A stretch of 64,000 bases of DNA from NCBI GenBank assembly GCA_964036045.1, contig OZ038381.1:115341790-115405789 (forward strand), written 5' to 3'. The notes under the pieces were generated by a model, which was not told the DNA's origin, did not search any database, and saw only the letters and a list, made by a program, of their open reading frames with translations. Numbering within the stretch: the first letter of the stretch is position 1; each line of letters opens with the position of its first letter. The position numbers were made by a program, and so were the translations under genes. Shown in pieces: positions 1,866 to 57,162 of this stretch. This stretch comes from Eutreptiella sp. 'Long Island Sound 2002' (lineage: Eukaryota; Euglenozoa; Euglenophyceae; Eutreptiales; Eutreptiaceae).

Positions 1866-2479
1866 TGAAGCTCAACCCCCCTCCACCGCCCTGCTGCCGC
1901 CCTGCCTTGTTACAGCTCTACGTCGATGTCCCGTACCGTATGAGACCCTCCTACGTCACCCGCGCAGACTGGTGAGAACCTATGATGCACTCAGAATAGC
2001 CATTCACGCTCTATCCTCTCCCTCCCCCTCCTGCGCGCGCACGCCATGGTACCTCGTTGTTGCGGTGGACATTTCCACGTTCTGCAACTACCGTTATTAC
2101 CGCGCCGTCATCACTGGCATTACCTGTTTATACGCAACACTGATACACTTAGCTGGAGCTCTGTTCCTTAAACATACACAACCCGCCAGCAGCGGTGCAC
2201 ACAAGACCCCCTTGCTTGACGTACCCTGCCCCCCCTCGCCACCTTGCCCCTCACCGGAGCGCGCTGCAGGCACGCCCTTACGAGCTGACCCCGCAGACGC
2301 CGCCTCACCCATACCCGCACAGACAGCCACCCGCCCACAGCCACCCGACACTGGCCACGTGGTCTCCAAGACAGGCTCAGCCCTCATGCACGCCTCCCTT
2401 AATGTCGGTGGACCAGACATCACCCCGAATCGTTTCTGCCACCTTCTCTCTGGTTTCCAGCCACTCCCCCATACCATAT

Positions 2480-2706
2480 GCCTCTAGGAGTTCAAACCAT
2501 CGCCCACTGCACACATCCGCGACTTCGAGCGGGTTGCGCTCCACGGGAGCTTCCACCTGCTCCACAGCTCCCCCTCCTCCAAGAACGGAGTAGCCATACT
2601 CGTACACACATATATCTCCCCCAAACCGCCCCCCCCTCTACGTCCACATCCCAGGGGTACTCATCTTTGTTGAACTCCATCTGCATCCCAATCCTCTAGT
2701 GCCGCC
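2480..2706 (+). pseudogene. Endonuclease (EEP/APE-type) N-terminal remnant
   Basis: A short open stretch reads like the start of an exonuclease-endonuclease-phosphatase domain: SSKNGVAILVHTYISP, then GVLIFVELHLHP, the usual 'NGVAILV...GV.V.VEL' strands. These endonucleases nick target DNA for target-primed reverse transcription. The catalytic C-terminal half (GDFN, SDH motifs) is missing and the sequence passes almost directly into reverse transcriptase, so an internal deletion near 2700 is likely. The stretch from 1866 to 2480 has open frames (1807-2487) that I cannot assign and that may be the ORF1/ORF2 linker. Confidence 0.4.
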
Positions 2707-4036
2707 TATGCACCTTACCTGAAATGGGTGAAATGGGTGATTGCGGTCATGCTGCTGCAGATTCAAGATGTGATGCAGGCTATCACCCCGTCGTCGCAAA
2801 AGGGGTTCCTGCGCGGGAGGCAAATGGTGGAACATGCCATCGAGGCGGTATATTTTTGGGGTCGTAACCGCCGCTGTGTGGTCGTAGCCATTGATTTTCA
2901 GAAGGCATACGACAGTGTGCAACATTCTTTTGTCTAGGCTATGCTGCGCTACTTAATGATAGGTCAGGATTACATTGCGTTGTTGGTGCAACTATCGACT
3001 TCGGAGTTGATTATCGAGGTGTGTGGGGAAGTAGTGCCGACAGCAGTGGTACGGCCTCGCACCGGTGTGCGGCAAGGAGATCCTCTGTCGCCGGCATTGT
3101 TCTCTGCTTTGACTCTTGCTTTAGTGTATGATGTATCTCGGCTCCATGCGGATGTCGAGATTTTGCTTTATGCGGATGACATACTTCTGCTCTTTCGAGG
3201 CAGTGGCCGCCGTACAATGGGTAATGTGGAGGCGGTGTTGTATGTCCTTGGCATATTCGGCCACTAATCTAGGTTAACGATCAACAGGGGCAAGTCGTAC
3301 GTGTTAGTCAAGACGAGGTCGCGGGAGTGTCCGATGCACATTGCCGGCCTCCAGGTGCAACAGAAGCTCAAGTACTTGGGTGTGCTGCTAGGCCATGTCT
3401 CGCCGTCGGAAGTGTATGGCCCAGTCATCTCCAAAATGATGCTGCGCAACCTCTCCACGTTGCCGCTGCCACTAGAGGAGAAGACCGCGTTGCTGCAAAT
3501 GTGGATATCACCGTGTTGCTACTTGACGGCGAGAGTCCATCGCCCTAATTTGCACGTGGAGCGCCATATGCACGTCATACAGGCTACTGCTTTGAGTATG
3601 AGCTGCTGGGGCCTGACTAGAGGAATCTTGGTGGAGCCTGCTAGTCGTGGGGGTGTCGAGATGGCCAGCGTGGCGGCCTACATCCAGTGGGTGCATTCCC
3701 ACACTTTCGTCCTGTACGCCCAGGGGGTCTTTCGCCTCTCGCGGGGTCTGACTCAACCTTTTGAGGACTGGGCCCATTCGGTGGGGTTGGTATACAACAG
3801 TGTTACATTACCGTACCTATAGCTATCGCCGGTGGGTGAACGGCCGCCGGGATACCCCGGGGGTTCTCTACGATCGTATTCCGAGGTGCGCAAGGGGATG
3901 CCAGTGCCGCCGCCCCCGCCGCCAATGCGGACAGGAGTCATGGGGCTTTGGCATAATGCGCTTTTCAGGAATGTGCAGCGTCAGAACATATGCCCACATG
4001 CCGTCTGTACGTCAAGGGGCTTTTCTGTGAGAACAT
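2707..4036 (+). pseudogene. Non-LTR reverse transcriptase, broken
   Basis: The translation carries the reverse transcriptase blocks in order: SSQKGFLRGRQMVEHAIE, DFQKAYDSVQHSFV (first catalytic Asp), GVRQGDPLSPALFSALTL, the catalytic YADD at 3169-3180 in ILLYADDILLLF, then LKYLGVLLG and LPLPLEEKTALLQMWI of the thumb. This is the non-LTR (LINE) type. The frame is cut by TAG at 2935, TAA at 3265 and TAG at 3820, yet the same frame stays meaningful past each of them. A frameshift near 4030 separates it from the RNase H region. It belongs with the ORF1 remnant upstream and the RNase H frame downstream. A minus-strand relative of the thumb lies near 28.3-28.9 kb. Confidence 0.9.
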
Positions 4037-5698
4037 TTGGTGCAGTCAAAGGTGCTACAGCCAGTAGCAGTGCAGACGATGGCGCCCACTTTTCGCTTCA
4101 AGTACCCCTCAGTGGTGCAGGTAGTCCTAGCGGTGCATTCCGGGGGGGCGCAGTGGCGTGCTGATGCTCCCTGCGACATGGGTAAGTGGGCACAGGCGTG
4201 GAGATCGAGGTCTCTGCTGCTGGCGGCCACCAGAGACAAAATGATCTTTCGCCCTACTGGTGATCGGGTTTGGAAGGTCTTCTTGCGGCTCAGAGTCCCA
4301 TCTTTTGACAGAGATTTCATACGCCGAGCTCTGTGGCGTAAGCTTACTGTGGCACAACGGCTGTGTGCCATGACACGGCAGGACAACTGTCCGTTTGAGC
4401 CGTTGGTGGAGACGCATCAACACTTCGTTGAGGGTTGCCAGTTCACAGAGTTCTTGGGATCATCAATCGGGCACTCTTGTGGCCAGGTGGGGCTGGAGGG
4501 CGGGAGGTGGGTGGCAGTGAAACACTTGCCTTATCGCCAGACAGAGCCGAGCCTAACCACCACGCAGGGTCTCGTGTATTGGGCGGGGTTGGCCGCGGCG
4601 TGGTCACTGCGGTGCCAGCGATTGTTCATGGGGACATTGTTTCCTGTTTTTGAGCTTGTGGCGGCATTGGTGTGTAAGCTGCAGGTGTGGCTCCATCTGC
4701 AAAACCCCACCCTGCCGCGGGCGGAGTTGCCGCCGTATTTGGATAACCTACTAGAGTGGCAGCGCACACGCCGGTTGGGCGCGAAATGGAGGTCCCCCAA
4801 AGGGCCGAGACCAATCCTATCCCTGACAGCGGAATTGAGGACCGAGTGGAAAAAGCAGAAGTACGCACAACACATCGAGCAGACCCTCACTACGCTCGGG
4901 GTGCTGCAAGAAAAGGTTTGGGATGTCGTGTTTACGGATGGATCCTCCAAAAGGGTACGGGGGTGGGAGCAGGCGGGGTTTGGGGGTTTTTACGGGGAGG
5001 GGGATGAGAGGAATTTTGCGTGCCCCCTTGACCCCCAGGAGATACAGACCAATTGCAGGGCAGAGGTGCGCGCAGTCCTATTTGCCATGCGCCAATGCAC
5101 TGGATCTCGCCCCATGGCGATAGTGACAGATTCAGAGTTCTGCTTTAATGGATTGACGAAACACATCCTCCTTTGGGAGAGACGGGATTGGCTGGGGATC
5201 TCCCATTATGATCAGTGGGTACAGATACTGGGACTGGCCAGGGACTCGTCCAGGCAGTATAAGTTTTTCTGGGTGCCGTCCCACGTCTCCATAGAGGGTA
5301 ATCAGGGAGCAGACAGGCAGGCAGAAGAGGGCATGCTGCTGCACGAGTATAATTTGCGCCCGTTACAAAAACGCCAACGCTTGAATCCTCCGGAAGTGGC
5401 AAATTCAGACGACATGGGGAGGGGGGGGAGAGAGATGACCCCCCTGCCGCAGGCCACATTGTGGCTGCTGTCCGAGGCTTCGTTTGTGTTGGAGGGCGAG
5501 GAGGAGGGGCTGCCTGATGTGCGAGGGGAGTCCCCACAGGGCCTGTCAGTGATCACAATATCGGAGGACGAGGAGGGGGGGGGGGGGGCGTCCGATCAGT
5601 CTTCGGAGTCAGGGGACGAGCCCCCGGTAGACGAATATGAGGCGTTCCTGGCCCGGTTCCTGGTGCTGAGTCCCAAGCGGCGCAAGGGCGACGCGTGA
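4037..5698 (+). CDS. Retrotransposon C-terminal region with complete RNase H domain
   Basis: This 553-codon frame is uninterrupted. It starts with the connection region of a LINE polyprotein; RALWRKLTVAQRL and a Cys/His patch, CPFEPLVETHQHFVEGC, lie near residues 95-135. An RNase H domain follows with all four acidic residues: D301 in FTDGS, E343 in NCRAEV, D365 in VTDSEF and D426 in GNQGADRQAE, with the usual WVPSHVSIEG. RNase H removes the RNA strand after reverse transcription. The C-terminal ~100 residues are acidic and of low complexity, and the frame ends in TGA. The ATG at 4037 is probably not a true start, because the frame continues a broken RT upstream. RNase H places the element in a LINE clade that keeps this domain (I, Tad or L1-plant-like); I cannot say which. 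Confidence 0.9.
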   Translation: MVQSKVLQPVAVQTMAPTFRFKYPSVVQVVLAVHSGGAQWRADAPCDMGKWAQAWRSRSLLLAATRDKMIFRPTGDRVWKVFLRLRVPSFDRDFIRRALWRKLTVAQRLCAMTRQDNCPFEPLVETHQHFVEGCQFTEFLGSSIGHSCGQVGLEGGRWVAVKHLPYRQTEPSLTTTQGLVYWAGLAAAWSLRCQRLFMGTLFPVFELVAALVCKLQVWLHLQNPTLPRAELPPYLDNLLEWQRTRRLGAKWRSPKGPRPILSLTAELRTEWKKQKYAQHIEQTLTTLGVLQEKVWDVVFTDGSSKRVRGWEQAGFGGFYGEGDERNFACPLDPQEIQTNCRAEVRAVLFAMRQCTGSRPMAIVTDSEFCFNGLTKHILLWERRDWLGISHYDQWVQILGLARDSSRQYKFFWVPSHVSIEGNQGADRQAEEGMLLHEYNLRPLQKRQRLNPPEVANSDDMGRGGREMTPLPQATLWLLSEASFVLEGEEEGLPDVRGESPQGLSVITISEDEEGGGGASDQSSESGDEPPVDEYEAFLARFLVLSPKRRKGDA

Positions 5699-5744
5699 GG
5701 CGATGCAGCGTTGATGTACTGAATGTGTAGACCAGAGTGCAGGT

Positions 5745-5820
5745 AACAACTCGTCATAGCACAGCGGGTATACCGCACCTCTTCTGTCCTGTGGAGGTGG
5801 GTTCGAACCCCGGGGGGGAT
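5745..5820 (+). repeat. tRNA-like SINE head, module 1
   Basis: An RNA polymerase III type 2 promoter is visible: A box tagcacagcggg at 5757-5768 fits TRGCNNAGYNGG exactly and B box ggttcgaaccc at 5800-5810 fits GGTTCGANNCC. The 31-base gap between them is normal for a tRNA. The 3' acceptor strand does not pair with the 5' strand, so it is not a working tRNA. A tRNA-derived SINE head is the best reading. Confidence 0.6.
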
Positions 5821-5969
5821 AGAGATACACCGAACGTCCCGAACGCCCCTTTATGCGAGAGAGAGGGCGCGATAGAGAGGGACGCAGTGGGAGGAGGGCC
5901 AGAGCGCAGTAGGTAGAGAGCAAGGGATGAAACCTGTAGATGCGTCTTCGTACTGGACAACATGGTAAG

Positions 5970-6045
5970 GGAGGCAGTGTGGCATAGTGGTAACCATTGT
6001 TGGCTGTCGTCGCATAGATCGCCGGTTCCAACCCGGCCTGTAGCA
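5970..6045 (+). repeat. tRNA-like SINE head, module 2
   Basis: A second module lies about 220 bases on: A box tggcatagtggt at 5980-5991 and B box ggttccaaccc at 6024-6034. The T arm (gccgg/ccggc) can pair but an acceptor stem is not obvious. It is a different tRNA-like sequence from module 1, so this looks like a cluster of heads rather than a duplication. Confidence 0.55.
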
Positions 6046-6284
6046 GTGCTCCCTCCCACCGGCCTCGCCCGACCGGGGACTGGGGCCCCTCCCGCTTTTG
6101 CTCATTTTAACCACACCACAGTGTACCCCTGATGGGCAACTACAGAACTCGGGTCCACGGCCACATAGGACATGAACAAAAAATGAGCTCAGCCACCTGC
6201 AGCAGTGCGCCCCACCACCGCCCCCGCTCGACGGGAGGCTGCCACGCCACCCGTTGCTTGCCTTTGCCCGAGCCGCCGCTCCGG

Positions 6285-6362
6285 CGGCTCCGACAGCGGG
6301 ATTCGAACCTGGGACCAGCGGCGCTGGCGTCCAGGGTGCTTCCACTGAGGCACATGGCGCTG
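6285..6362 (-). repeat. tRNA-like SINE head, module 3, minus strand
   Basis: On the minus strand a perfect B box ggttcgaatcc (6299-6309) follows an A-box-like tgtgcctcagtgg (6342-6354). The arm before the B box (gtccc...) is tRNA-like. The A box is one base off the consensus. The remaining sequence from 6365 to 6640 shows no gene. Confidence 0.5.
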
Positions 6363-6639
6363 CAACCTACCTAGGATGCACCAGGGCCTGGAGGAGGGAC
6401 ACCCGACCTCACCCGACCTTCCCACACCGCGCTTCGCTTGGGCGCCATCCATAAGAGATCAAGTGTGCCTAACCAGATGTATGTAGTGCAAGCACTTTGC
6501 AGTTGTATGTGTGCAAAAGCTATTGGCTTGGGCCACAGCACTTTGAATGGGTTCGGCCCTTGGAACTGATTTGTGCGGAGCCGGATCCTGTGAGCGGGGG
6601 TACCCGGTTAGCCAAGTATCCGTCTCTATGCCAGCCTTA

Positions 6640-7400
6640 CCTCATTTTATGGCCCCCACACCCTAAAAGAGAAACGTGCGTGTGAGCCATACCTTGACGC
6701 CATGACCCGAGACTCCTACCTCATCATGGGTGACTATAATGGCACCACACACGTGTCCCACACAACAGCCCTGCGCGCAAATGTCTGGCCCTGGCTGGCT
6801 GCTAAGGAGAAAGCGGGTTCCCTGGTCGACCTGCTCATACCCCACACCGATAGTACCCCGTACACCGGAGTGCGACGCTTCGCGGGCACCAAAAGTTACA
6901 TTGGCCGTGCATACGGCACACGACTGTATCATAATTCATCCGAAGTGTCGTCGGCACGGGTAATTGACTTTTCCTCCGTCCATGGTGCCTCTGACCACGA
7001 TCCAGTAGCTGTCTCCACCATCCCGTGGAGTGCACCACACCTCCCTGAAACACGCTGGGCACAATGGAACAGACGAGATGTCCAGCTCTACCGGGCACTC
7101 GTCTTCCGTGCATTGCAGGACGCTGAGACCCTTGAGTCGTTTCAGGATGTCGAGGGCTGCCACAGCAAGATCACCGGGTGTATGCTGGCTGCAATGCGCC
7201 AGGTCAATGCCTCCCGCCCCCCGACCACACACCCCACACCAGACGTCTCTGACTGGTACCGGTTGGTCAAACAGCTTGCGCGCCAGGCGAAGCGACACTC
7301 AACAACATTTTTTCGACGTGTCAAACACACGCTCCTCACACCCCTGTCCCCATCCACCCTGGGAGGCCATATACGCCTTCGACATGTATCACGCCTTTGA
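6640..7400 (+). pseudogene. Second non-LTR element: endonuclease C-terminal half
   Basis: The frame reads as the C-terminal half of an APE/EEP endonuclease: SYLIMGDYNGTTH (the GDxN motif), then SYIGRAYGTRLYHNSS, VIDFSSVHGASDHDPVAV with the catalytic SDH. It continues into a helical linker. The N-terminal half is not convincingly present, so the element is probably truncated at its 5' end. The next recognisable piece is already in the RT palm, so the RT fingers have been deleted around 7370. Confidence 0.75.
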
Positions 7401-7765
7401 CAGTCCGCCAAAATTTTTGATTAGGGAGGTTCTAGAAGGCATGGGGACGCCATCCAAGCTACTGCAACTAATCCAAAGGGTGCTTGAGCATGGGTCCACA
7501 TACATCCGAGGCAGCCCAGATGAAGTTTTTCGGACGGTGCCCCCTCTTCTGCTTCCTTTTTGTCCTGGTTTTCGAGATCCTCCTCAGGTACCTCCAGTCC
7601 TAGGGACTCACCATCTCAGCCTATGTTGACGATGTGTCCACACCCATTTCGCATGGCAAAGGAAGTCTTACCGCATCTCTGGTACAGCAGGGGTTAAACC
7701 TGATTGGCTGCCAACTCAACGTTGCCAAGAGCGAATGTCTACCCCTCCTGCGCCCCCCCCCCCCC
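7371..7765 (+). pseudogene. Second non-LTR element: reverse transcriptase palm remnant
   Basis: DMYHAFDSPPKFLIREVL gives the first catalytic Asp region and LTISAYVDDVSTPISHG the YVDD box (7622-7633), followed by LVQQGLNLIGCQLNVAKSE. A frameshift separates the first part from the YVDD part, TAG at 7601 interrupts the second, and a run of C at 7753-7766 shifts the frame into the downstream open frame. The GVRQG block is degraded. Together with the flanking endonuclease and RNase H it forms the pol region of one element. Confidence 0.8.
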
Positions 7766-9473
7766 ACTGCCTCCCTCGCTGCCCAAGTACGCTCAACCCC
7801 CTGATCCTGTGCAGGCCGGCCCCATCTACTGGTCCGTCGAGCCTTGTGTGTCCTTGCCCGAATGGGCGGACACCACCGAGCATCCCATGCTAAAGGTATC
7901 CCACCTGATGCACTTCAGCCACCCGCTGCCAGCCTACATGGCCCAGAAAGCAGGTTATAAGATAATTGTTGACGAGCTACTCAATCAGTTGGCTAACCTC
8001 AATGCACACCCCATACAAACGCTAGATAGGGTGCTCCTTGTCAACACGATGGTCCTGCCCCGCCTCTTGTACCGATGCAAATGCTACCCTCTCACTGGTA
8101 CACAGCTTCAGGAACTCTCCCCAGCGCTGGAACGTTTTGTGTTTGCGGTCTCGGATTTGCCGTCACTCGTGGCCAAGAAAACTCTGTACACCCACCGCTT
8201 CAGGGGACTTGGCCTTGGCTGCCTGATGGTCCTGTATCCCACCCGTGTCCTTGACTCCCTGCACAGGAACCCCCTGCTTGATGAGCTGCGCGTGTCCTCC
8301 CCCTCGAACATCTCTCCGCGTGTTCTTTTCACCCACGCCCTCTCCTTGTTGGGACCCCCCCCCTCCTCGAGCATGCTCCCCCTCACCATCTCCCGGAGAT
8401 CCAGACAGGCCCTACGTGGCGCCACTGAGATCGCCTCAGTGGCAGGTCTAGCAGCGTATGTGGTGCCCAACTCCGGCCCCTCGCCTGACTATACCTATAC
8501 CGATGGCAGCCGTATCGGGTCCCCCCCGGCGTCTGGCGCGTCTGCCGTCCTTCGAGATGGACGTATCGTCCTCTGCCGCGTGCCAGGCAACCCCAATTCA
8601 TACAAAGCTGAGGTCGTCGGTATATTGCTAGGTTCCCACTTCTCCCCCCCCAATGCAACGCTACGGGTTGACTGCAAGGGTGCTATTGCCTCCACCACGG
8701 GTACCAAGCGACCCGTCCGCCAGTCCAGGTGGGTCCTTCAGGCTAGGCACTCCTTCCTGTCAAAAAACCAGTCTCTGCAATGGATTGAAGGGCACACAGG
8801 CCACGTGCATCAGGAAAAATCGGACGATTTCGCCAAGTATGGCTCCACACTGCCTCCCCCCCCCCCCGACACGGCATGGACACCGTGGGATGTCATCTAC
8901 CGAGGCGAGCTCATGCTGCCCCCCCACAAAGTCTGGACTCACGACTTGGTTGCACAGCACTCCCACGACCACTTTCACCCCTCCACCTGGTACCCCCTGA
9001 AGTTCGGTCGACTCGCATGGCACAAATGGCTCTTCAGCCTTCAATCACGGAACAACTACTCCCACTACGCGAGTTTCTGGAAGGATGAGTGCCCCTCACA
9101 CCCATGCTCCCACTGTCGCCTGCGAAACAACCTCAGTGTACACGGTGTCCTTGCTCACTGCTCCCCCTCCCACCCCCTCGTCCACGCCTGGCTATCCTCA
9201 TGGCCACAGCCTGCTCTGGTTGCCAGATGGCGGAGCACTGCGCTCCACCGCGACCTGCGCATCGCTGGGCGACTCGCTGTACCTTGTTCCCTCTATCAGC
9301 ACCTGCTACTGTCCTTGGGTGGGTCGAGAGCTGCAAAGAGGTTCATTAGTCACTACCATAAACATGCAGTGGACGCCATCACGCTTGCCCTAGCTGATGA
9401 CGTCCCCACCTCTTCCTCTAAACCCAACCCGTTTCATTCGCGGGACTGGCTCCACTCGCCCCGCCCCGTATAA
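7704..9473 (+). CDS. Second non-LTR element: RT thumb, RNase H and C-terminal region
   Basis: This 589-codon frame is intact from the C-run shift to a TAA stop. It begins in the RT thumb (LDRVLLVNTMVLPRLLYRC) and holds a complete RNase H: D267 in YTDGS, E303 in YKAEVVG, D323 in RVDCKGAI and a D374/D375 pair after WIEGHTGHVHQEK. The C-terminal ~170 residues have a Cys/His pattern (HPCSHCRLRNNLSVHGVLAHC) typical of the end of such polyproteins. The printed start lies in the overlap with the RT frame and is not a natural start. The element is close in design to the first one but clearly different in sequence. Confidence 0.88.
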   Translation: MAANSTLPRANVYPSCAPPPPLPPSLPKYAQPPDPVQAGPIYWSVEPCVSLPEWADTTEHPMLKVSHLMHFSHPLPAYMAQKAGYKIIVDELLNQLANLNAHPIQTLDRVLLVNTMVLPRLLYRCKCYPLTGTQLQELSPALERFVFAVSDLPSLVAKKTLYTHRFRGLGLGCLMVLYPTRVLDSLHRNPLLDELRVSSPSNISPRVLFTHALSLLGPPPSSSMLPLTISRRSRQALRGATEIASVAGLAAYVVPNSGPSPDYTYTDGSRIGSPPASGASAVLRDGRIVLCRVPGNPNSYKAEVVGILLGSHFSPPNATLRVDCKGAIASTTGTKRPVRQSRWVLQARHSFLSKNQSLQWIEGHTGHVHQEKSDDFAKYGSTLPPPPPDTAWTPWDVIYRGELMLPPHKVWTHDLVAQHSHDHFHPSTWYPLKFGRLAWHKWLFSLQSRNNYSHYASFWKDECPSHPCSHCRLRNNLSVHGVLAHCSPSHPLVHAWLSSWPQPALVARWRSTALHRDLRIAGRLAVPCSLYQHLLLSLGGSRAAKRFISHYHKHAVDAITLALADDVPTSSSKPNPFHSRDWLHSPRPV

Positions 9474-10148
9474 AGGCGTTGCCCTCCCCTGCTCTTGCCG
9501 ACCACGCCCACCCTTTTCAGGTCTGAAGTGAATGCTGCGCCAACTCTCTGCCCTAAAGTAAGTGGGAGATCGCCATCAGGGCCCTCTACATACCTCAAAG
9601 TAAGTGGGAGATCGCCATCAGGGCCCTCTACATACCTCAGGCGCCAACACAGTGTTCACTGCAGTCCATATTTGTTCCAGCCTGCTCTCCCCTGTCCTGT
9701 GTGTGCTCCTGCCTCCTGCCTTTTTCTATTTTTGTTTGCCTTTTTCTATTTTTGAACCGACTAGCGCCGAGTCGGCCCTTCCCTGGCACACCAACACCTA
9801 CATTAACGCCCTGGATGTGGACATCCCTGCTCTTGCCCCTTCCCGCGTCCTGTATGCATGACTGGAGTCTGGCAATGGTAGCTGCCAGCCCCCTGGGCAC
9901 CCCCATGGTTGACCATCACCCCCGGGGATGGCAACGGGGCGACTGTACGCGGGGATACCACCTCTGTTTTCATCATTGCACCTTGCACTAACCTTCACAC
10001 TTCAGCGACACGCCGGTTTGCCTTCCCACCCACCGACCTGCTGACCCATGACCCTGGGGTGTGGGTCACAAATCTGTATGATGGGCTGGCCTTCCTATTC
10101 AGCGGACCGTTGCACTGTGAACTGTGTATTTCGAAGAAAAAAAAAAAA
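9474..10148 (+). other. 3' untranslated tail of the second non-LTR element, with 42-bp duplication and poly(A)
   Basis: After the RNase H frame ends there is a non-coding tail with a near-perfect tandem duplication of 42 bases (9559-9600 and 9601-9640, sharing taagtgggagatcgcc) and finally an A12 run at 10137-10148. A poly(A) end is what target-primed reverse transcription leaves, so 10148 is the likely element boundary, only ~97 bases before the H2B start codon. Confidence 0.6.
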
Positions 10149-10244: not shown

Positions 10245-12003
10245 ATGCCTGCTAAAGCCGGTGGAAAGGCTGGTGGCAAAAGGAAAGGGGCCAAGACCAA
10301 GACTCCCAAGGTCAAGGGAATCAAGAAGGGTGGCAAGAAGAGATCCGTGCGGACTTAGTCTCTATACATCTTCAAGGTGTTGAAGCAAGTGCACTCCGAC
10401 ACTGGAATCAGTAACAAGGCGATGAACATCATGAATATTTTCACAAACGACGTTTTTGACCACTTGGCTACGGAAGCGAGTATGTGCATTGTGATCCCGT
10501 CCACCCAAATCATCAACACTTTTCTTTCACCTCGTCAATTGCATTTGTTAGACGGGGTCGGAACAGGTTTATGCACTAAAAATGCCAAATCCAATCAACC
10601 CCCAACAACAATAATTCTTTCTCGCTTACTTCGTTTGTCTGTGCCTTGTGCCACCTCCATGGAGCATGAGAGGAAACAAGAAATAGCAAGGGATGGTCCT
10701 CTTGTTTCTTCCCTGACGGGTCTACTAGCAACGTGCATGGATTCTTCCGGTACTTCGTCCAGCAATACGTTCAGTTTGCTTGCAACAGCGCTCAAGGGTG
10801 CTGTGGAAGGACCACGGGGGGCGTTCAGACTCAGATCTTGACCCTGCCCCCCCCCTTGGGAGGTCCAATTTGTTGAGGTGGTCTGGACCACGTTTGGCCC
10901 AAACCTGGCGCCAAAAGCGCCGGAATTTATTTTTTGGTCCATGGTGGAGTTTGAAAATTTACTTCACCCTCTGTGTGTATGCCCAAAATGCTCAGAATTT
11001 CGTGGGGAATTCAACTGTGCATGCAAAACGGGTAAATTTTTTCACCTCTGACCTTCCCCCCCAGCCCCCCCCCCCCCCCCCGAAAGAAATCTGGCTGCTG
11101 GGACTGGACCCTCAGTGGGTTAATTTATTTTTCAAGAACCCCACATGTGTGTGTTCAAAATGATGAGCGCAACAACGGGACATTTTGAGGTATGTATGTT
11201 GGGGCACACCGGACCCCCCCCCCCCACCGGGGGCCCCCAACCCCCCCCAAGGACCCTCCCCCCCCTCCCACCCCCTCCCACGGGGCCCAAAAAGTTTAGG
11301 GGGGGCGGGTTGGAGTCAGGATTTGAGTCTTAATGCCCCCTGTGGGAAGGGTGTTTTAGTTCACAGTGATGACCCGATTAACATGCTGGCAAACAAATCA
11401 CAGCGGAACGGTGGGGTGGGGGGTAGGGCGCAGGTTCTTGTGGGTGTACTGTGATCCATTCTTTGTGCCCAAAACACGCCAGTACACAGAATCCCGACGG
11501 CATCACACATCAGGCCAAGGAGAGTACGTTGGCGCGCTGGGCAAAGTTTTCCCCTATTTTCCCAATTGTCCCCCCTTTTTCCCATTTTTTGTCCCTGTGT
11601 TGGGGACCCCCGAGAAGGCAGGGGTGATGTAGCCATTCTGCACACACGTGGGCCCCTGAGACGGCAGGGGTCAGGTAGCCTGGGCTGGAGGAGGGAGTGA
11701 TGTCTGGGTGTAAAGTATTGGGATAGATGGCCGAAGCATTGGTTTGGATGCCGCGCGCCGGGCAAACGTACCCTCGAGGGACCCTTGCCTCACTACTTGC
11801 CCCAAACTACTGATGCCTGGGTTGTGGAATCTGCAGCAGAGTTGCCCAACTTTTCCGTAGGCAAGTTGAGCAAGATCAATAAGACCAAGACGCTTTCGTT
11901 GCGTGAGATCCAGACCGGGGTTCGGCTCATGCTGCCTGGAGAGCTTGCCAAGCACGCCATGAGTGAGGGCACCAAGGCGGTTGCAAAGTATACATCTGCT
12001 TAA
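10245..12003 (+). CDS. Histone H2B, two exons, with one in-frame TAG
   Basis: Exon 1 (10245-10479) encodes a Lys/Gly-rich N-tail and the first part of the histone fold ([31 protein letters not shown]). Exon 2 (11861-12003) encodes [20 protein letters not shown] and [13 protein letters not shown] before TAA. The 1381-bp intron has GT at 10480, AG at 11860 and joins in phase 1 as [11 protein letters not shown]. The 125-codon length is normal for H2B, a nucleosome core protein. The single defect is TAG at 10356-10358, at the well conserved Tyr of the 'TYSxYI' stretch. A few other core positions are unusual (MNIF for MNSF, SLREIQT for SSREIQT). It could be a young pseudogene, a sequencing error or a read-through gene. 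ctcattttgcag just before the ATG may be the acceptor of a 5'UTR intron. Confidence 0.85.
11560..11685 (+). repeat. Dispersed pyrimidine/'gagaaggcagggg' repeat in the H2B intron
   Basis: A C/T-rich leader of cccattttt-type runs is followed by ggggacccccgagaaggcag and ggggtgatgtagcc (to 11640), and a weaker second copy (gagacggcaggggtcaggtagcc) follows at once. The same leader-plus-motif occurs at about 12910-13014, and the motif again near 23811-23852. Confidence 0.55.
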
Positions 12004-13920: not shown

Positions 13921-14400
13921 ATGCAGTGCATTGAGAATTTTGCTTATGTGCAGACCGCACATGGTACCATTAGCATCTATGCATGTCCATGTGTATCCCA
14001 AATCCTTGGGCGACTTACAACAAGCAACTGACCGGCCTTGAATTCTACATAGTATGTGCCGGTAAGTAGTTGGTTGGGGGTGTTGTCCATCCCCGCACGC
14101 GGGGGGAGGGGGGGGTCACTTGGCTTCGTCTCCGGGGGCGGGAGATGGGCACCGGGCGGGCTGGAGTGTATGAACATCTTATGTGAAATGCCATTTCTCA
14201 TCCAAAATGTTGGCCAAATCCCATACTCCATGAGCACTCTTTGCCCACACCAGCTCCATATTCGATTCACTATTCACTATCACCGCCGTCTTCCATACCA
14301 CTTGGAAGGCCACAATCGGCGATGTGAAAAATTCCAAACCTACATATAGCATGAACAGCAAAACCAGTACCACTGGGGTGTGTGCCACTACGATCCCATG

Positions 14401-14460
14401 TTTCCCGGGAAACCCCAGTTTGGTTTCACTGCCTCTCTTCTCCACAGTGTGCACTATGTA
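14401..14460 (+). repeat. ~58-bp dispersed repeat, copy a
   Basis: Contains ccccagtttggtttcactgc and ctcttctccacagtgtgc. First of four copies (a, b left of the ubiquitin/RT element; c, d right of it). Each ends in a pyrimidine tract plus ccaca(g/t)tgtg, which resembles a splice acceptor. Confidence 0.7.
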
Positions 14461-14785
14461 TTTTTGTGGTCATGCACCTATCACCCACATCCAATGGCTT
14501 GTTAGACAAGCTTGATGCTGCCACCCACACAGACTTCGCGCGGACTGCGGCAGAAAGGGGCGTGCAATGCTTCATCACCCTTGCGGAGGTCTCCCCTGAG
14601 TTATTCGCCCCCCACTCGAGGGACATTTTCGCGCCCTCTCCAGAGATCACCCAGTCCACGGCCCTCGACCCCAGCTTGCGCCGCTTGGCCTTCGAGCTCA
14701 CCATCATGATGGCGGAGACGGAGGATTTGACTAACGCCGGAGAGCTGCAGACGCTGCAGAGTACAAAGCTTGCGACGACCCCATT

Positions 14786-14966
14786 GCTGCCCCTCTTTCC
14801 CCCCGGCGGACTGCCCGAGGTGCAGAGCCAGGGGGCTCCTCCCAACGCGGGTCCAGCCCAACCAGTGACCCCAGTGCTGCCCCTCTTCCCTCTCCCCCGG
14901 CGGATTGCCCGAGGTGCACAGCCGGGGGGCTTCTTCCAACGCGGGTCCAGCCCAACCGGCGGCCCC
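14786..14966 (+). repeat. Tandem pair of ~90-bp units
   Basis: Two adjacent units share ctgcccctctt, a C-rich block, cggcgga, tgcccgaggtgca and aacgcgggtccagcccaacc. They lie just before copy b of the dispersed repeat, inside the left part of the retroelement. Confidence 0.7.
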
Positions 14967-14972
14967 GGGTGT

Positions 14973-15030
14973 CCCCAGAAACCCTAGTTTGGCGTCACAA
15001 CCTCTCTTCTCCACATTGTGCGGTATGTGC
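14973..15030 (+). repeat. ~58-bp dispersed repeat, copy b
   Basis: Contains ccccagaaaccctagtttgg, cgtcacaacc and tcttctccacattgtgcggt. It lies about 570 bases from copy a. Confidence 0.7.
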
Positions 15031-16025
15031 ACGGCGGCGCGTGGTGTGACTGTCCGGAACGCAACGGCAGCGGCAGCGGTACTGACAAATGCCACGATGG
15101 AGTACAAGCTGCGCGCTGGGCCTCTGAGGATCGCCCTGCCGTTGGCAGCGGCCCAAACGGGTGCCGTGGTTGCGTTAGGGAGACCGGAAGCGGCGCGTGC
15201 GCTGGTAGCGGCCCACTCGGGAGCTGTGGCGCACGCTGTGCGGCTGGGCTTGGCAGCGGGTCCATCAAGGTCTACCAAGACACAACTTGCCAACAAATGC
15301 TCAGCGGACCTCCCCGTGGAAGACGTCCTGCCGTGCGTGGACTACCTCGACAAGTTCGACGCCGATGGATCCGCGGCGGCCCGCTAAGTAGGGACTGTTG
15401 GAGTAATCGACAAGCAGATGAGCATCGTGATGGACCAGGTGCTGCCCCACCCGGGTGCTACGCATGCGGACTGCAGGGGTGCAAGACTGCAGGACACCGT
15501 GGCGAAGCGGAGCCACAAAATGAACACCGACATGACGACACAGCGAGTGGGGAAAACCCCGACACAGGGAGCGGCCAAAAGAGCGCCGCCGGTGGGTCCG
15601 GAGAGCGCGCGCACGCCAGCAACAAGTGCCGTGATGCGCGAGGTGCAGCAGGATCCAGCAGGGGGGGCCCTAAGGTCGACGATGCGCGTGATGATCATGA
15701 ACGACACGCTAGCGGCTGCCATTGTTTGGGTCGTCCCGGAGGCCACGGCCCTATGTGCACGGCAACGATTCCCCTGTGCGCCTGGCGCACAACGCTCTGC
15801 CGCCTCCGCCGCCTCGGACGATGCCCCCACTTCGGCCGCCTATGGCGGCACCTGCACCACTAGCTCCGTCATCCCCTTCACGTGTACTGCCGCCGCCCCC
15901 GCCGATTCGGCCAACCGAAGCCCAATCGGTGTGCAGGGCGATATCCGATGCTCGTGCGCGGCTTGGACCCGGCGCCGCCTACGCCGTCTTCGACACCCAG
16001 CTTTGAACCCTACAGCTAGTGCGGT
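15031..16025 (+). pseudogene. Retroelement Gag-like N-terminal region, frames mixed
   Basis: Several overlapping frames are open here and protein-like composition moves between them, as in a decayed Gag region. In the frame open from 15018 to 15863 two Cys/His clusters are seen: CYACGLQGCKTAGH (about 15460-15500) and CHCLGRPGGHGPMC (about 15718-15760). The second is one residue short of the classic CCHC knuckle spacing. Zinc knuckles bind RNA in Gag proteins. No capsid fold can be claimed by eye. It precedes the ankyrin, ubiquitin-like and RT parts of the same element. Confidence 0.4.
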
Positions 16026-16799: not shown

Positions 16800-16947
16800 C
16801 AACCAGGGGCAGCGACAGAGCACCAGTTGCCGGCCTAGCGCTAAGGCCGCGGCCGGTGCCGGCCCTTATGGCAGCAACTACGGCGACATGGCTGCTGACG
16901 CGTACAAAGCAGTTGACACAAATTGTGGCAGCAGTTCCGAACCAGTA

Positions 16948-17181
16948 CGATAAGTCTTCGTCAAAATGCAGACGGGTTGCACCTTGGCGATCCGCATCCA
17001 CTCATGGCATGACCCCGTCAGCAGCATCGAAACACGCATCCGTGAAAAACATGGTGTGATGACAAGTCAACAGTGGCTATTGTTCGCGGGCAAAGCAATG
17101 GCACAAGATGAATGGCCACTGGCAAACTACGGTATTAGGGCCTGCTCCACCCTCGAGGTACTGGGCCGCTTGCGAGGCGGC
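16948..17181 (+). pseudogene. Ubiquitin-like domain within retroelement polyprotein
   Basis: The translation aligns with ubiquitin over its whole length with only two single-residue insertions. VFVK, then TGCT (ubiquitin TGKT), IRIHS, IREKHGV (IQDKEGI), QQWLLFAGK (QQRLIFAGK), LANYGI (LADYNI), CSTL (ESTL) and the exact C-terminal RLRGG, here at codons ending at 17181. A peptide MPAQ... follows directly in frame, so LRGG sits where a deubiquitinase would cut. The Lys48 equivalent is kept; the positions of Lys11 and Lys63 are Cys and Ala. The frame is open upstream into a Gly/Ala-rich peptide, except for TAA at 16951, which falls on the ubiquitin Gln2 position. So it looks like an internal fusion rather than a free ubiquitin gene. 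The sequence match is clear; the function is inferred. Confidence 0.82.
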
Positions 17182-17712
17182 ATGCCAGCGCAAAGCGATG
17201 CTATGAAGGGACACATGGCCATGACACCGGCGGAAACGACCACCAACCCCACGGCGGCCAACTCCTTCCTACTTGCATGGGCAAAATGGGTACAGGGCCC
17301 ATACCAGGCCCTGCTGAAAAACGCCCACTTTGAGCAGCAACTCGATGTGTGGGAACTTGGATTCCTACAGGCCCTCACACAGCAAGAAGTGCCAAAAGGG
17401 GCGATTGCTGCTATGACCTTGCGGGCGGGAATGGCCCTGGTTGTGGGGGGGGCCACGCGCGCAATGGCGGCCTACATTGCCCGCATGTGCCCAGGGAATG
17501 CATAGGGAGGCCAAAGACACCAAATGGGGCCCCAAACACTCTGGGTTAGTAACAACCAGGCCTTTGACATGAAAGCGCCGCCCCCAAGCCTATGCAAGAG
17601 ATGTGGGCAAATGCACTCGGCCCAGTTCCCGTGCTGCCAACCTTCGCCGGTTGCTGCCGCCATTGCCACCGCACACAAGCCTAGAGGCAACAACACACAT
17701 GCAATGGACTAG
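17182..17712 (+). pseudogene. Gag-like protein following the ubiquitin-like domain, with zinc-knuckle-like motif
   Basis: The same frame continues for ~107 codons of helical sequence (FLLAWAKWVQGPYQALLKNA, then a run of Ala/Met-rich helices), passes TAG at 17503, and reaches CKRCGQMHSAQFPC (C-x2-C-x3-H-x5-C), a zinc-knuckle-like pattern with off-consensus spacing, before TAG at 17710. A helical segment plus a Cys/His knuckle after it is the usual order of Gag, so a nucleocapsid role is inferred. No family match can be claimed. Confidence 0.5.
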
Positions 17713-19619
17713 AGCGCAGCCCTGCTTCACTTGCTCCAGCAACAAGGAGGGCAGTCCCCCGAAGCCTGAACCGCCAGCTCCCCAACCCCCCCAGGCCCGA
17801 CCCTGCCCAACAAACCCCATTGGCTGGCCAAGGGACGACCACAGTGGCTGCCGCGTGGGACGCATACCGCGCAGCGCTCAGTGCTGGGCTCTGAGAGAGC
17901 CTTGCAGACACGCTCGCATTCGCCACGCGGGCGTTCGCCAAGGGCGCGCGGAACACCTACCTTGTGCGCCGTCCACACCACGCTCATGGATAACGACGAC
18001 GACACCGACAACGTAGTGGGTCAGTGGCTCGCAATACCGTGTCTGGATTCCAGATGCTGGCCAAACTGCAGTTACTCCGGGAAGTGGTTACCGCCAGAAT
18101 GTGGCTCCAGGTGCGGATCTCGACAAAGGCACTGCACACCTGGCCAAGCCCCGAGTCTGGGCCATAGGGCAGGCCCTTGAGCGACTGCGGTGATGCTGCC
18201 ACCACTGGGAATGGGCCAGAACCTTCTTCGCCGTGGTTTGTGTAGCCGTATTCGCCCTCCTCGTCAGCGATGTCGGCAGCTTCATGTGGGATGGCATCGC
18301 CACCCCACGATTCATCATATTCTGGGACCAAAAACGTCAATGCTGAGTGGGTCACTGGGCCGCTCAGCCCGTCCCTAGAGCGATGGCGAGCCTACATCTG
18401 CCGGTTCCGACGGCCGGACCAACTCCCCACTACACCCCTCTTCCCCGGCGACGGATTGGCAGCACAATGCCTCCACGATCCCCTAGGGCCCACATCACGT
18501 GGCACCCATGGAAGCGGTTCTCGGCGGCGGCATACATCTGGCTCGGGGGCACCACCGTGGGCCTCCAGCAATGGGCCAGGTGGTGGTCCCCCCGGCAAGC
18601 CCGCCACCAACCTCGCCACCCACCGACATGGACGCTCCAAGACACCCTGTGCCTGCCCCTCCGTGCCAGATACACTGGCTCACCCGCTAGAGAGCTCGAC
18701 TATGGCATCCTCAGCACCAAAGATGTATGGCCACGTGAAGCCTGGGCCCCTGTCACAGCCCGGGCGCCGCGCAAAGCACCCCTGCCTGCACACGTCGTCG
18801 GCAACCCACACCTTAATGACCATGATTAGTCAGGCTCGGGCGAGGAGTTTGTGGACTACGATGTGCGGCGCCACTCAGACCGTGACATCCAGCCCCGAAT
18901 CGGTCAACTGCCAACAGATGCGCCGAAACCGGGCCACAACGATGCGACGCGCACAATGTTGTGCGATACACGACAACCCGGAGCAGATGATTCACAGCCT
19001 GCTAAAACCCTGTCAACACACGATTGCCCGCCAGCACCTGCGACGGTATGAGCACATAGTGACAACATTAACACGTGCCACCGCAGCCTGATGGTCCAGC
19101 TAGAGCCCATCCGGGCACAGACGTCGACGTCGATGCAGACGCAGCCTGCACAACCTACAGTGCAAGAGCCGAATTTGCAGCATGCTCCCCCGTGGGTCTG
19201 GTTATGCCATCCCTCATGCAATACATACCCACACAAAGCGGGCCACGCCCACCACCGGGCGCACCGACCCCTGCACGAACACATAGGGCAGGCACCTGCC
19301 CTCATGCACGCTGCCGAGCGAAATCAACCCCAACCCTAGTGGCCCCCACGACCACCGCGACCAGCCCATCTACGTGCCCCAGAAGGGAATCTAGCATGCA
19401 CCGACATCCGCAAACGGTGCAGCAAGGGAGGGAACAACCAGAGCACCATGGGCGACAGGGGGGCCCTCCAACTAGCCACACGTGCCACCCCGACCGGACA
19501 AACGGCCGCACATACCCACGGGCGAAACACCAGCCCCACAAAGAAAGATGTGACTGGTTCCTCTGCAAATCCCACCTCCGGCCCCACCTTCCGACGTCTA
19601 GGAAAGGGGCACGGTACCT
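17713..19619 (+). pseudogene. Retroelement middle region, decayed, with a hydrophobic segment
   Basis: Protein-like pieces occur in changing frames: VAAAWDAYRAALSAGL and SLADTLAFATRAFAKGAR (about 17840-17960) and, at 18170-18345, WARTFFAVVCVAVFALLVSD followed by FIIFWDQKRQC. The latter holds a likely membrane-spanning stretch (18224-18283). Its frame continues after a TGA to 18829, with a second moderately hydrophobic piece (FSAAAYIWLGGTTVGL). I cannot assign a protease or envelope. It lies between the Gag-like and RT regions, so it is taken as part of the same element. Confidence 0.35.
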
Positions 19620-21355
19620 GCCGTGGAACTCGGGACCCCTGCCACTGTCACAATTCGACAAAGCCGCATCAAATGACCGCTTTGCCGCGTTACGGGGTCC
19701 AATACATAGGGCGGTGCAACACATGTCCATCAAAGGGCCCCTGATCGGCACGATTGTGCCCCTTCTGGAAGACATGGCTATGCTCACCATGAATTGGGCA
19801 TGGGACAGCTGAAGAGGTTTGTGCCGTCATGCCGGTCCTTGCTCAGCGCGACTCCGGGGAAGACGATATCTCGCCTTTTGCGGACCCCGCCCCCCGGCCC
19901 AAGCAGAACACCGGCGATACCTTGCCTTTACATGTCGCCAGCAAGGGCATTGGGGCAGCAGGCTCCATCCCTATCCGTGCCGATGTGTGGAACAAGCACC
20001 TCCCTAGAGACATGAAACGAGCGCTCATCGTGGCACCCGACCTAGGTGATTTGCATCACCAGGCGTCTGCTGTTCTCGCCAAGGCCATGCACAGGGACGG
20101 CCTCCTCAAAGGGGCCCTAATTGCAGACATGCGCTTCTTGAATGCCATGACGGGGCCTCCGCCACGCCCGTTTGAGCTCCCTAGCATGGCGCAGCTCGCG
20201 GTGCTCCTTGAGCTACCACGGTCCCAAAATGTTCAGGCATATTTAACCAAGCTGGACGCTTCTAACATGTTATGGTCGGTACTCCTTCCTCCGGAGTACT
20301 CTACCAGCTTCCGGTTCCGCGTGAAAGGGATCACGTACACGATTCCTCCCCTTCAGCTGGACTGCTAGTCCAAATAAGGCAGTCGAGGTATTGGCCGCTT
20401 ACCTCACGCTCCACTTTCTGGGGGAAGTGATCCTCATCCAATACGTGGATGATATCCTGCTGCTGTCTGCGGACACACGCCGCCTACGCGTGGAAATTAC
20501 CATGCTCATGGACAAGATGCGCACGGCTGGGTGGGTCATCAACGCAAAGTCCCAGGTGAAACCAACCACCGAACTGACATGGATGGGCAAACACCTGAAT
20601 GGGAAGCGGTACACCCTACGGCAGTCCGCCGAGTACATGGCCACGGCCACAGCCATGTGGGTGAAACTGACCACAAAAGGGTACGAACATCGCACCATGC
20701 ATCGCCTAAGCGGAAATTTGGTGTGGGCTTTGCGGCCGGGACGTGGAGCCATGCCATTTCTGGCGGGATTCCTGGTGTGGCTGAAATGGCGACCCACGCA
20801 GTCCAAGTATACCCCACCAGTGGTCCTACGGGGACTTATGGAAGCTCTTGCACTCGGTATCACCCCGCAACGGAGGAAACATGGTACGTTGACGTGGCCT
20901 ACGACACCAACCGGTGGATGGCGGCGTTGTGGACTACTGACCGCGGCATGCGCATCTGCCCACCGCCGCCCTGGGTCACCACCCAGCAAGGGGCCGAGCT
21001 CGCGGCCATCGAGATGGCAGCCAATTTTGCGGCTTATGAGCGACTGACGCAACTCCACTTCGTTGCTGACAACATGTCCGCCATCTGGTCCACTATCTGG
21101 AACAAGAGCAACACACCAAGCCCGACACGAGCACACCAGTTGCGCCGGATTGCGGGCGCATTGCGCTGGTCCGGCCTTCGGATGCGCCTCAGCTGGATTG
21201 CTTCGCGCTTCAATCCCGCGGACTGCCCATCCCCGGCATCCAAGTACGACTCTTTTGTCCACATGGCGGCAGATACTGAGGCCACCTACCGCGCGCTGCA
21301 ATGCTTCCCTGAGCACACACCAAAACACATGGGGTGGGCCCACCGAAGGGGTTGA
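19620..21355 (+). pseudogene. Reverse transcriptase-RNase H of a DIRS- or pararetrovirus-type element
   Basis: RT begins near LIADMRFLNAMTGPPPRPFE and has YLTKLDASNMLWSVLLPPEY (first catalytic Asp) and FRFRVKGITYTIPPL. After a frameshift near 20360 comes SPNKAVEVLAAYLTLHFLG with YVDD at 20442-20453, then GWVINAKSQVKPTTELTWMG and HRLSGNLVWALRPG. A second frameshift near 20870 leads to RNase H: DVAYDTNRWMAALW, AELAAIEMAANF, VADNMSAIW and FNPADCPS, with all four acidic positions. The short palm and the NPADxPS ending are features of DIRS-like and pararetroviral enzymes, not LINEs. No tyrosine recombinase or integrase was found, so the class stays open. The last frame ends in TGA. Confidence 0.82.
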
Positions 21356-21529
21356 CTGCCCCGCCTGGATCGGGCTGGTGCTTGTGGCTTCAGTGGGTTC
21401 TGGGCGGCAGGTACCTTGGGTCTCTAGTTGTGTCTGGTGCAGCCACGTCTTTGGCCACAGAGTCAGTGGAAGCCTGTATGCACTCATCTTCTTCCGGCAA
21501 GCCGGTCTCTGCAGTGAATAACCCAGGTT

Positions 21530-21590
21530 CCCCAGATGCCCCAGTTTGGCGTCACTGCCTTTATTTTCCACATTGTGCTGTATATTATGT
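21530..21590 (+). repeat. ~58-bp dispersed repeat, copy c
   Basis: Contains gccccagtttggcgtcactg and ttccacattgtgctgtatat. It lies about 170 bases after the RNase H stop, so it marks the right side of the retroelement. The sequence from 21600 to 22360 shows no gene. Confidence 0.7.
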
Positions 21591-22362: not shown

Positions 22363-22660
22363 AGGGCGGGGCCGCGCGCGCTCCCGCCCATCAGATGGTT
22401 GTTCGACTTATACCGTGCCTGTGTCTTGAGGGAGCGGGAGGTCCAGGGAACCAACCAAACCCAGGTCTCCCCAGAACCCCCAGTTTGGCGTCACTGCCTC
22501 CCTTCTCCACAGTGTGCAGTATATTTTACTTCCCACCCAACCACCCCCGAACCCGCGGCATCCTACCCTAACCGGGGCGGGGCCGCGTGCTCCCGCCTGT
22601 TCGACTTATATTGTGCCTGTGTCTTGAGGGAGCAGGAGGTCCAGGCAATCAGCCAAACAA
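22363..22660 (+). repeat. Direct repeat pair enclosing copy d of the ~58-bp repeat
   Basis: Two ~90-bp copies (22363-22460 and 22576-22660) share gggcggggccgcg, ctcccgcc, gttcgacttata and tgcctgtgtcttgagggagc. Between them lies copy d (22464-22529: ccccagtttggcgtcactgc, ctccacagtgtgcagtatat). The A-B-A layout suggests a terminal-repeat structure, or nested duplications, at the right end of the element. Confidence 0.65.
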
Positions 22661-55690: not shown

Positions 55691-57162
55691 AGATGCGCAC
55701 ATTTGGCTCCGCCAAACTGGGGGACTACCGGCCCACAGCCCTGTGTCAACTGGACATGAAGCTGCTCACGGGTCTCCTCACCGAGCGGATCACGGAGGTG
55801 CTCAGACGACACGGCGTGGTCAGCGACTGGCAGCAGGGGGCCCTCTCCGGCTCCAACACCGGACCCCCCCTGTTCATGGCGCAGTAGCAGCTCCAACGGG
55901 GGAGGCCCAACTACGTCTTCTCCTTCGGCGCCTGCAAGGCCTTCGACACCGCCCCGCAAGGCGCACTCCAGCTCACCTTGCGCCACCTCTCCGTGCCGCC
56001 GGCGGTCATTGACCTCCTGCTCTTCCTCCACCTGGCGGCCAGGCTGCCCATCGCCACCGCGCACGGACCCACGCGGGTGATCCACATGCTGCGCGTCGTA
56101 CAGCAGGGCAACCCCGAGAGCCCCCTGCTGCATGCACTCCTCTCGGGGCACCTAGTCCGGGCCCAAGGGAACCAGCTACGCCCGCCAGGAGAGGCAGAGA
56201 GAGGCCTCATCCAGGCCTATATAGACGACCTGCTGGTAGTGGCCCACACGCTGGAGCAATTTGTGGAGGGCATGGAGGCGGTCGCCGCGTACCTGGGGAC
56301 GATGGGCTTAACCCCCGAAAGTGCGCCATGGCCAGCACAGAGGGAATCCGGCGTCTGCACCTGGGTCTCTGCCCCCACCTGGAAAACCACTGGTACCCGG
56401 TGCCGGCGGCGGACTCCAACCCCTATCTGGGACTCCAGCTGCAGCCAGACGGGGAGTTCCCCCTGCAGCGCAAGCACCGGCTGCGCCTGGCGGCGGTGCA
56501 ACACTGGTGTCTCAACACCCTCGCGCCGCCCAAAGGATGCAGGACCTCATCCTCGCGACTCTGGGGGGGGGGTGATCCAGTACGTTGCCCCCTTCATCGC
56601 TGACGACCCTGACACCGCGCGCCACCAGGACCACATTGCGGTCCAGGTCGCGAAGGACAAAGCGAGGTACGCCTTCGACGCCTCTCGGGGTAGCCTACAG
56701 GATGACCGGACCCTGGGGCTGGCGCGGGTGCCCACACAGTGCCAGCAAGCGGTGCTCGTCAACCACCGCTGGGCCTCTGTGCGCGCCGGGGCCACCAGGA
56801 TGTTCTGGGAAATCGGCGGTGCACATGGCATCTGCCCCGAGGTGCACTATCTGGTCCCGGAGTTCGCGGCCCTGGCGGGGGGCGACTGGGTCAATTGCAT
56901 ACCCCGGGCCCTGGTCACCTTCGGGGTGGGGCTCTACAACCCCATTGAGTGCCCCCGGGCGGCCCACGTCCAGCTGCAGTCCCTTCCAGGCAATGTCGTA
57001 ACGCTGCGCACCGCCAGGCTGCGACACCGCGACACATGCCGCCTGAAGGTGCCGCACACGACACACATGGCACGGGCACCACGGGCCGCACCACCCCTTC
57101 CCGGACAACGACGACCTGTGGCCGGCGACAGTGCGGGAGTGCCTCAACCGGTGCGCCAATGA
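55690..57162 (+). pseudogene. Third element: reverse transcriptase with YIDD box
   Basis: YRPTALCQLDMKLLTGLLTE, ITEVLRRHGVVSDWQQGALS, then past TAG at 55885 FSFGACKAFDTAPQGALQLT (catalytic Asp normally in 'DF.KAFD' is replaced: the residue is FGACKAFD), VVQQGNPESPLLHALLSGHL (for 'GVRQGDPLSP') and AYIDDLLVVAHTLEQFVEGM (YIDD at 56218-56229). The layout is a LINE RT, but GNPESP for GDPLSP and FGA for xDF are unusual. A frameshift near 56320-56570 precedes the frame to 57162. One frame (55381-57162) carries only one stop. Confidence 0.75.

Follow-up and report, generated by a model that had tools for sequence, protein, structure and literature searches.

In host genes, ubiquitin is found at the N-terminus of the eL40 and eS31 ribosomal fusions, where true ubiquitin, ending in GG, is followed by an unrelated protein and is thought to aid the folding or the expression of this partner. 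Ubiquitin can also be found inside the polyprotein of cytopathogenic pestiviruses, RNA viruses in which it is an occasional insert, almost unchanged from that of the host; cellular ubiquitin hydrolases cut it and so give the next protein its N-terminus (PMC5308820). Some mobile elements are tied to the ubiquitin system in another way, e.g., the VTD and OTU Helitrons, which encode a deubiquitinase (PMC9741609).

Among retroelements, the tyrosine-recombinase (YR) retrotransposons of the DIRS and Ngaro types carry a reverse transcriptase (RT) and an RNase H, and are described as lacking both an aspartic protease and a DDE integrase; the word "ubiquitin" does not occur in either text (PMC3783388, PMC3266345). 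The VIPER and TATE elements of kinetoplastids, whose hosts belong to the Euglenozoa, encode a Gag-like protein (with a CH-box in some cases), a tyrosine recombinase and an RT/RNase H as overlapping ORFs, and neither "ubiquitin" nor "protease" occurs in the text of the corresponding paper (PMC6681497).

Here, we describe in Eutreptiella sp. 'Long Island Sound 2002', also a member of the Euglenozoa, a case of a retroelement with its own heavily diverged ubiquitin. The element resembles VIPER/TATE in its gene order. Like the ribosomal fusions, it joins ubiquitin-GG to an unrelated protein, but it is not a host gene and does not start with true ubiquitin. Whereas the pestiviral ubiquitin is a sporadic acquisition, that of the element is a diverged part of a retroelement present in several lineages; and where the deubiquitinase-encoding transposons carry the cutting enzyme, the element carries the substrate. 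Among the titles and abstract openings listed in our literature search, no retroelement with ubiquitin before Gag was found.

The window copy and its ubiquitin domain

We analysed a stretch of 64,000 nucleotides of contig OZ038381.1 (hereafter, the window), the features of which are collected in Table 1. A preliminary description, made from the letters, had recognised a ubiquitin fold pattern with two single-residue insertions and an RLRGG ending, and this is what a Pfam profile search recovers: residues 3–76 of ubiquitin match PF00240 with an E-value of 1.1e-10 and 41.6 bits (cut-off 25.4), and copies from elsewhere in the genome also pass this cut-off (L019, 41.1; L020, 42.9; L027, 35.7; L062, 57.1; L059, 42.2 bits). 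Of the solved chains matched, 315 in all, the best 60 comprise ubiquitins, their fusions and engineered forms, a few of them bearing other labels. Taken together, the Pfam score and the solved-chain matches rule out a chance resemblance.

Table 1. Features of the ubiquitin-bearing element (window coordinates, except in the last row, where positions are those of the copies named)
Feature	Position	Strand	Basis and remarks
68-nt repeat D1, upstream	14964..15031	+	Further copy at 14395-14462
50 codons upstream, ubiquitin frame	16801..16950	+	Relative in 1/20 fetched copies (L018, 73% identity); no Pfam match
TAA, in-frame stop at ubiquitin position 2	16951..16953	+	Sequence
Ubiquitin domain, residues 3-76, two one-residue insertions	16954..17181	+	Pfam, solved-chain matches, decay simulation, alignment-based model
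RLRGG tail, presumed deubiquitinase cut site, then Met	17167..17181	+	Sequence, constraint, tails of other copies
First part of Gag, joined directly to ubiquitin	17182..17502	+	Homology to other copies; no Pfam match
In-frame stop; about 0.8 kb of the Gag of other copies absent around here	17503..17505	+	Comparison with copies
Zinc-knuckle-like C-x2-C-x3-H-x5-C, CKRCGQMHSAQFPC	17593..17634	+	Motif; region has relatives in 20/20 fetched copies
Tyrosine-recombinase-like protein remains, two frames	17877..18631	+	45.8-56.0% identity to L027
Reverse transcriptase, two frames (19805-20353, 20346-20867)	19805..20867	+	58.8 and 69.0% identity to L027
RNase H-like region	20876..21349	+	70.3% identity to L027; no Pfam match
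68-nt repeat D1, just past RNase H	21521..21588	+	Further copy at 22460-22527
Chlorophyll a/b-binding protein gene pieces	L019 2189-3820; L020; L027 2006-3856		Upstream of ubiquitin, same frame

The domain is identical to ubiquitin at 29 of 74 residues, the insertions being a W after residue 19 and an A after residue 50. Most ubiquitin lysines are gone and Leu71 is replaced by Gly in the element (Asp in one group). The aliphatic state is kept at all 14 core positions. In an in silico simulation of neutral decay, run until ubiquitin had fallen to this level of identity, an open frame, the 14 core positions and RLRGG were jointly retained in none of 4000 runs (singly, in 14.8%, 0.05%, and 1.1%, respectively). 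Therefore, most of the divergence arose while the protein was in use. As for the fold, proposed to be a beta-grasp, the model built from the single sequence is too poor to use (pLDDT 48), whereas residues 1–71 fold like ubiquitin when an alignment of real ubiquitins is supplied, an alignment which itself leans that way.

The window copy is a broken relic of the element. Besides the stops at ubiquitin position 2 and in Gag and the missing part of Gag, frame shifts occur further on, and the recombinase-like and RT/RNase H pieces sit in shifted frames. The RT retains YVDD (20445-20456) and reaches 21 bits with RVT_1, below the cut-off of 29.6. An NCBIfam search gave no match and PHROGs gave weak ones only. 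Several earlier proposals have to be read in this light. The Gag-like protein announced after LRGG is indeed directly joined to it, but the zinc motif is not, the in-frame stop and the lost Gag segment lying in between. An RT and an RNase H-like stretch are present downstream, as described, but in pieces split over two frames. As for the frame said to be open upstream, it is closed by the TAA in this copy; other copies are open over up to 825 codons, so that an internal fusion fits the element family.

Copies of the D1 repeat, which contains a pyrimidine tract with CACAG at its end, are scattered around the element, and D1 is a candidate terminal repeat or splice acceptor; in the window, it stands both upstream and after RNase H, while in most of the fetched copies it was seen upstream only, and in other copies it lies near ubiquitin and chlorophyll-binding pieces. 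Elsewhere in the window, the ORFs at 4031-5695 and 7704-9470 match RNase H (65.7 bits and 25.2 bits, the latter just below the cut-off of 25.8) and show no relation to the ubiquitin element by tblastn; the ORF at 55888-57159 gives a sub-threshold RT match (26.5 bits); a core-histone fragment (PF00125, 31.6 bits) lies at 10359-10838; and a 208-nt tandem repeat forms two mutually inverted arrays (59037-60630 and 61148-62725).

Copies, gene order and lineages

The 183-aa ubiquitin-Gag ORF of the window served as query against the genome (2.28 Gb, 2205 contigs). The flagellar rod family PF05149, known from Euglenozoa, has 39 matches in this genome (best, 1.2e-105) and none in 14 control genomes. 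Along with the chlorophyll-binding sequences described below, this result indicates a photosynthetic euglenid as host, and a prasinophyte, considered at first, was discarded on the strength of the flagellar rod matches. The ubiquitin-Gag search gave at least 154 matches, and the copy counts are lower bounds because 150 of 776 candidates were scored. Near-full-length matches (from residue 1 or 2 to at least residue 170) number at least about 35 among those listed, the window included, plus fragments; two of them, located on small contigs, seem to duplicate a third, and much of the remainder corresponds to host polyubiquitin arrays on one contig. The ubiquitin-Gag fusion is thereby shown to be multi-copy. 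No relatives were found in genome_contigs, viral_contigs (ubiquitin-Gag and RT), phages or plasmids.

We fetched 20 copies at 10 kb, chosen by their ubiquitin-Gag match. All 20 contain, besides the ubiquitin-Gag by which they were selected, the knuckle and recombinase-like regions, and many of them the first RT part (17/20), the second RT part (14/20) and RNase H (12/20), some of the pieces being broken, displaced or inverted. In L027, an unbroken frame of 1971 aa (frame 2, 2006-7918) spans the upstream leader, ubiquitin, Gag, the recombinase-like protein and, ahead of the latter, a CCHC knuckle that scores 21.3 bits against a cut-off of 20.8; the RT-RNase H follows in an overlapping frame (frame 3, 5655-9554). 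The element order is, hence, ubiquitin, Gag, CCHC knuckle, recombinase-like protein, RT, RNase H-like. RVT_1 passes its cut-off in L027, L062, and L060 (44.6, 48.6, and 31.9 bits); RNase H was recognised by motifs, its Pfam scores in L062 staying below threshold (RVT_3, 16.3; RNase_H, 13.3).

The recombinase-like region was located in the window through its homology to other copies, and it is likely a tyrosine recombinase. Its Arg, Lys, His, Arg/Lys, His/Trp and Tyr positions line up with those of lambda integrase, with an alignment score of 21.9 against a maximum of 17.0 in 20 shuffled controls, also exceeding the Gag and RT controls, but with an HHalign probability of 1.2% (2.8% over 24 columns when the distant rows are left out). 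Phage_integrase reaches 12.1 bits in L059, under the cut-off of 27.1. The protein has no Pfam match in L027 and L062, no recombinase is found among its 8 solved-structure matches, and a YR-signature regular expression, absent from the window as well as from 60 Markov windows, does not discriminate. Among the Pfam matches of the scanned ORFs, in which unrecognised regions remain, there is neither an aspartic protease, nor a DDE integrase, nor any protease family. The element family is most likely of the tyrosine-recombinase kind.

The same order is found in a more divergent group with DRLCGG tails. L062, which belongs to it, is identical to L027 at 56% in Gag, 70% in the recombinase-like protein and 64% in RT-RNase H; in its subfamily (L043-L045, L047-L049, L054, L062), the tail is mostly DRLCGG-MPSAK, with Cys for Arg74. 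The more distant loci L059 and L060 combine ubiquitin with other Gag-like proteins and with recombinase-like regions 29% identical to L027; L060 also has a CCHC knuckle and an RT (32% identity to L027) that both pass the Pfam cut-off, and in L059, a 110-residue RT match shows 31% identity. The ubiquitin-Gag fusion is common to these two distant lineages, and RGG-Met is kept in both (L055/L059 and L056/L060). In a fourth type, L061, ubiquitin alone was found within 6.5 kb. The IMG/VR contigs L005-L008 encode ubiquitin-like proteins behind a signal-peptide-like start, those of L006-L008 having a C-terminal tail without GG that resembles a bacterial sorting signal.

In a ubiquitin tree, a single branch (97/92), recovered in 98% of bootstrap trees, parts 30 element ubiquitins from seven others, i.e., host polyubiquitin, one host ubiquitin-like protein (a label assigned in the analysis) and four sequences from virus contigs; L055 and L056 are long branches placed next to the host group. 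The tree fits one capture of ubiquitin by the elements, and stops short of proving it. It also bears, with the dispersed copies, on the idea that a host polyubiquitin pseudogene decayed beside a retroelement by chance, which the preliminary description had named among its own refuters. The window copy is broken, as such a pseudogene would be, but the fusion is repeated at many dispersed loci, none of the simulated neutral decays matches it, the element ubiquitins stand apart from host polyubiquitin, and the domain is under purifying selection (see below); we thus reject this idea as practically excluded. That ubiquitin is fused into a retroelement Gag, as first described, is upheld by the dispersed copies with their recombinase-like and RT regions, by the distant lineages and by this constraint.

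Constraint, tail and leader

A comparison of dN/dS between copies, suggested with the original observation, reveals purifying selection on the domain. L027 was compared with three close copies. Before ubiquitin, where two of the pairs align well (0.88 and 1.16) and that with L026 poorly, the pooled pN/pS is 0.96; for the other parts, it is 0.25 in ubiquitin, 0.29 in Gag, 1.75 in a 48-codon linker (18 changes), 0.52 in the recombinase-like protein and 0.38 in RT-RNase H. Among 21 copies, the pairs with usable dS give a median ratio of 0.34 for ubiquitin (190/210) and, for the first part of Gag, of 0.14 (93/210); no p-values are given, because the pairs are not independent. In ten-codon windows along 11 copies, pN/pS is 1.30, 1.49, 1.92, and 0.64 before ubiquitin, and 0.20, 0.68, 0.87, 1.45, 0.18, 0.38, 0.02, and 0.04 from ubiquitin on. 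Amino-acid constraint thus sets in at ubiquitin, eases mid-domain, and is strongest in the last strand and RLRGG-Met, where the value for RLRGGMPAK is 0.05 with 11 copies and 0.11 with 20. Whole-ubiquitin pN/pS is 0.46 over 20 copies, decayed ones included, and 0.65 in group C alone; the first half is weakly constrained (0.50, 1.20, and 1.12 in three groups, i.e., above 1 in groups B and C).

The tail was followed in 39 copies, namely the 21 longer-read ones, window included, and 18 short loci picked among weaker matches. RLRGG is found in 18 of the 21, with Met directly after in 20 of the 21; among the short loci, some tails of which were read by eye, exact RLRGG is found in 3/18 and GG in 14/18. 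Overall, GG is present in 33/39 and exact RLRGG in 21/39 copies, GG being absent in L022, L037, L040, L046, L049, and L052, and residue 74 is not Arg in 11/39 (Cys in 9, Gln in 1, Tyr in 1).

Two readings are judged against this pattern. The domain could stay uncut and work within Gag, e.g., by recruiting ubiquitin-binding host proteins, as the retained hydrophobic core, the conservation of Arg42 (18/20 copies) and Lys48 (20/20) and the six copies without GG would allow; RLRGG-Met would then be needless, yet it is precisely there that constraint is so strong, and we consider this reading quite unlikely. Alternatively, the element could make a free ubiquitin-like modifier, conjugated to host ubiquitin or competing with it. 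In favour of such a modifier, Arg72 and Gly75 are kept (19/20 and 20/20), but the replacement of Leu71, the absence of Met1 and the loss of most lysines in the window copy make it very improbable.

On the upstream side, Met1 of ubiquitin is absent in 39/39 copies, and therefore something is presumably translated before it. No start codon was found at one conserved place upstream. An in-frame ATG follows the last upstream stop in 19/21 copies, and in 16 of these it lies 22–36 codons before ubiquitin, so a short leader may suffice. In 15/21 copies, no upstream frame is open over a greater length than that of ubiquitin (median 249 codons vs. 72 and 43), and 212, 267, and 415 stops are found over 600 upstream codons in the three frames; hence, a long upstream frame is far from universal. 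Some leaders nevertheless contain pieces of a chlorophyll a/b-binding protein (E-values of 2.7e-45 in L019, 2.5e-45 in L020, and 1.7e-23 in L027), none of which was found in the window copy. The amino acids of this part drift, and it is 91–95% alike between L019 or L020 and L027, against about 70–72% for the ubiquitin-Gag and RT parts; judging from these identities, it was probably exchanged between element families. What is translated before ubiquitin may thus be a short leader or a long passenger, and for both, ubiquitin is a natural place for their removal.

Possible role of the ubiquitin domain

Host deubiquitinases had been proposed as the processing enzyme from the outset; we still infer their use, now with better circumstantial support. 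We propose that a retroelement family captured ubiquitin, which has since diverged, directly in front of Gag; that a leader or passenger would be translated ahead of it; and that host deubiquitinases would cut after GG, freeing Gag from the leader with an N-terminus Met-Pro-Ala-Lys. In this way, ubiquitin would take on the processing job done by an aspartic protease in many other retroelements. Cleavage after GG is probably the job of the domain, and the likeliest one, given two published observations: YR retrotransposons without an aspartic protease (PMC3783388) and the host hydrolases acting on the pestiviral polyprotein (PMC5308820). Against a processing role stand the copies without GG (6/39) or with a changed Arg74 (11/39), the replaced Leu71 and the weak constraint on the first half of ubiquitin.

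Ubiquitin could also serve mainly to help Gag to fold or to be expressed, and be cut off without leader release being the point. The layout of ubiquitin, GG and partner, in many cases with a Met following GG, is the same as in eL40 and eS31, but in the element ubiquitin lacks Met1 in every copy, and so is not the N-terminus as in these fusions, and constraint is tightest at the tail instead of being spread over the fold. A role as folding partner thus appears unlikely.

If cleavage by host deubiquitinases is retained as the preferred reading, a broader and tentative picture, which we hold as possible and no more likely than that, is one of a clade of protease-less euglenid retroelements in which an ancestral captured ubiquitin would serve as cut site, while upstream host passengers such as the chlorophyll-binding pieces would be swapped. 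The element could carry and exchange such coding passengers because the cut would make Gag independent of them. The in-frame ATG at 22–36 codons from ubiquitin in 16/21 copies makes this picture somewhat less likely, a short leader being perhaps sufficient. If our reading is true, borrowed host deubiquitinases would give a directly testable answer to whether and how the proteins of YR retrotransposons are processed, and the element would represent a stable, multi-lineage counterpart of the pestivirus ubiquitin inserts.
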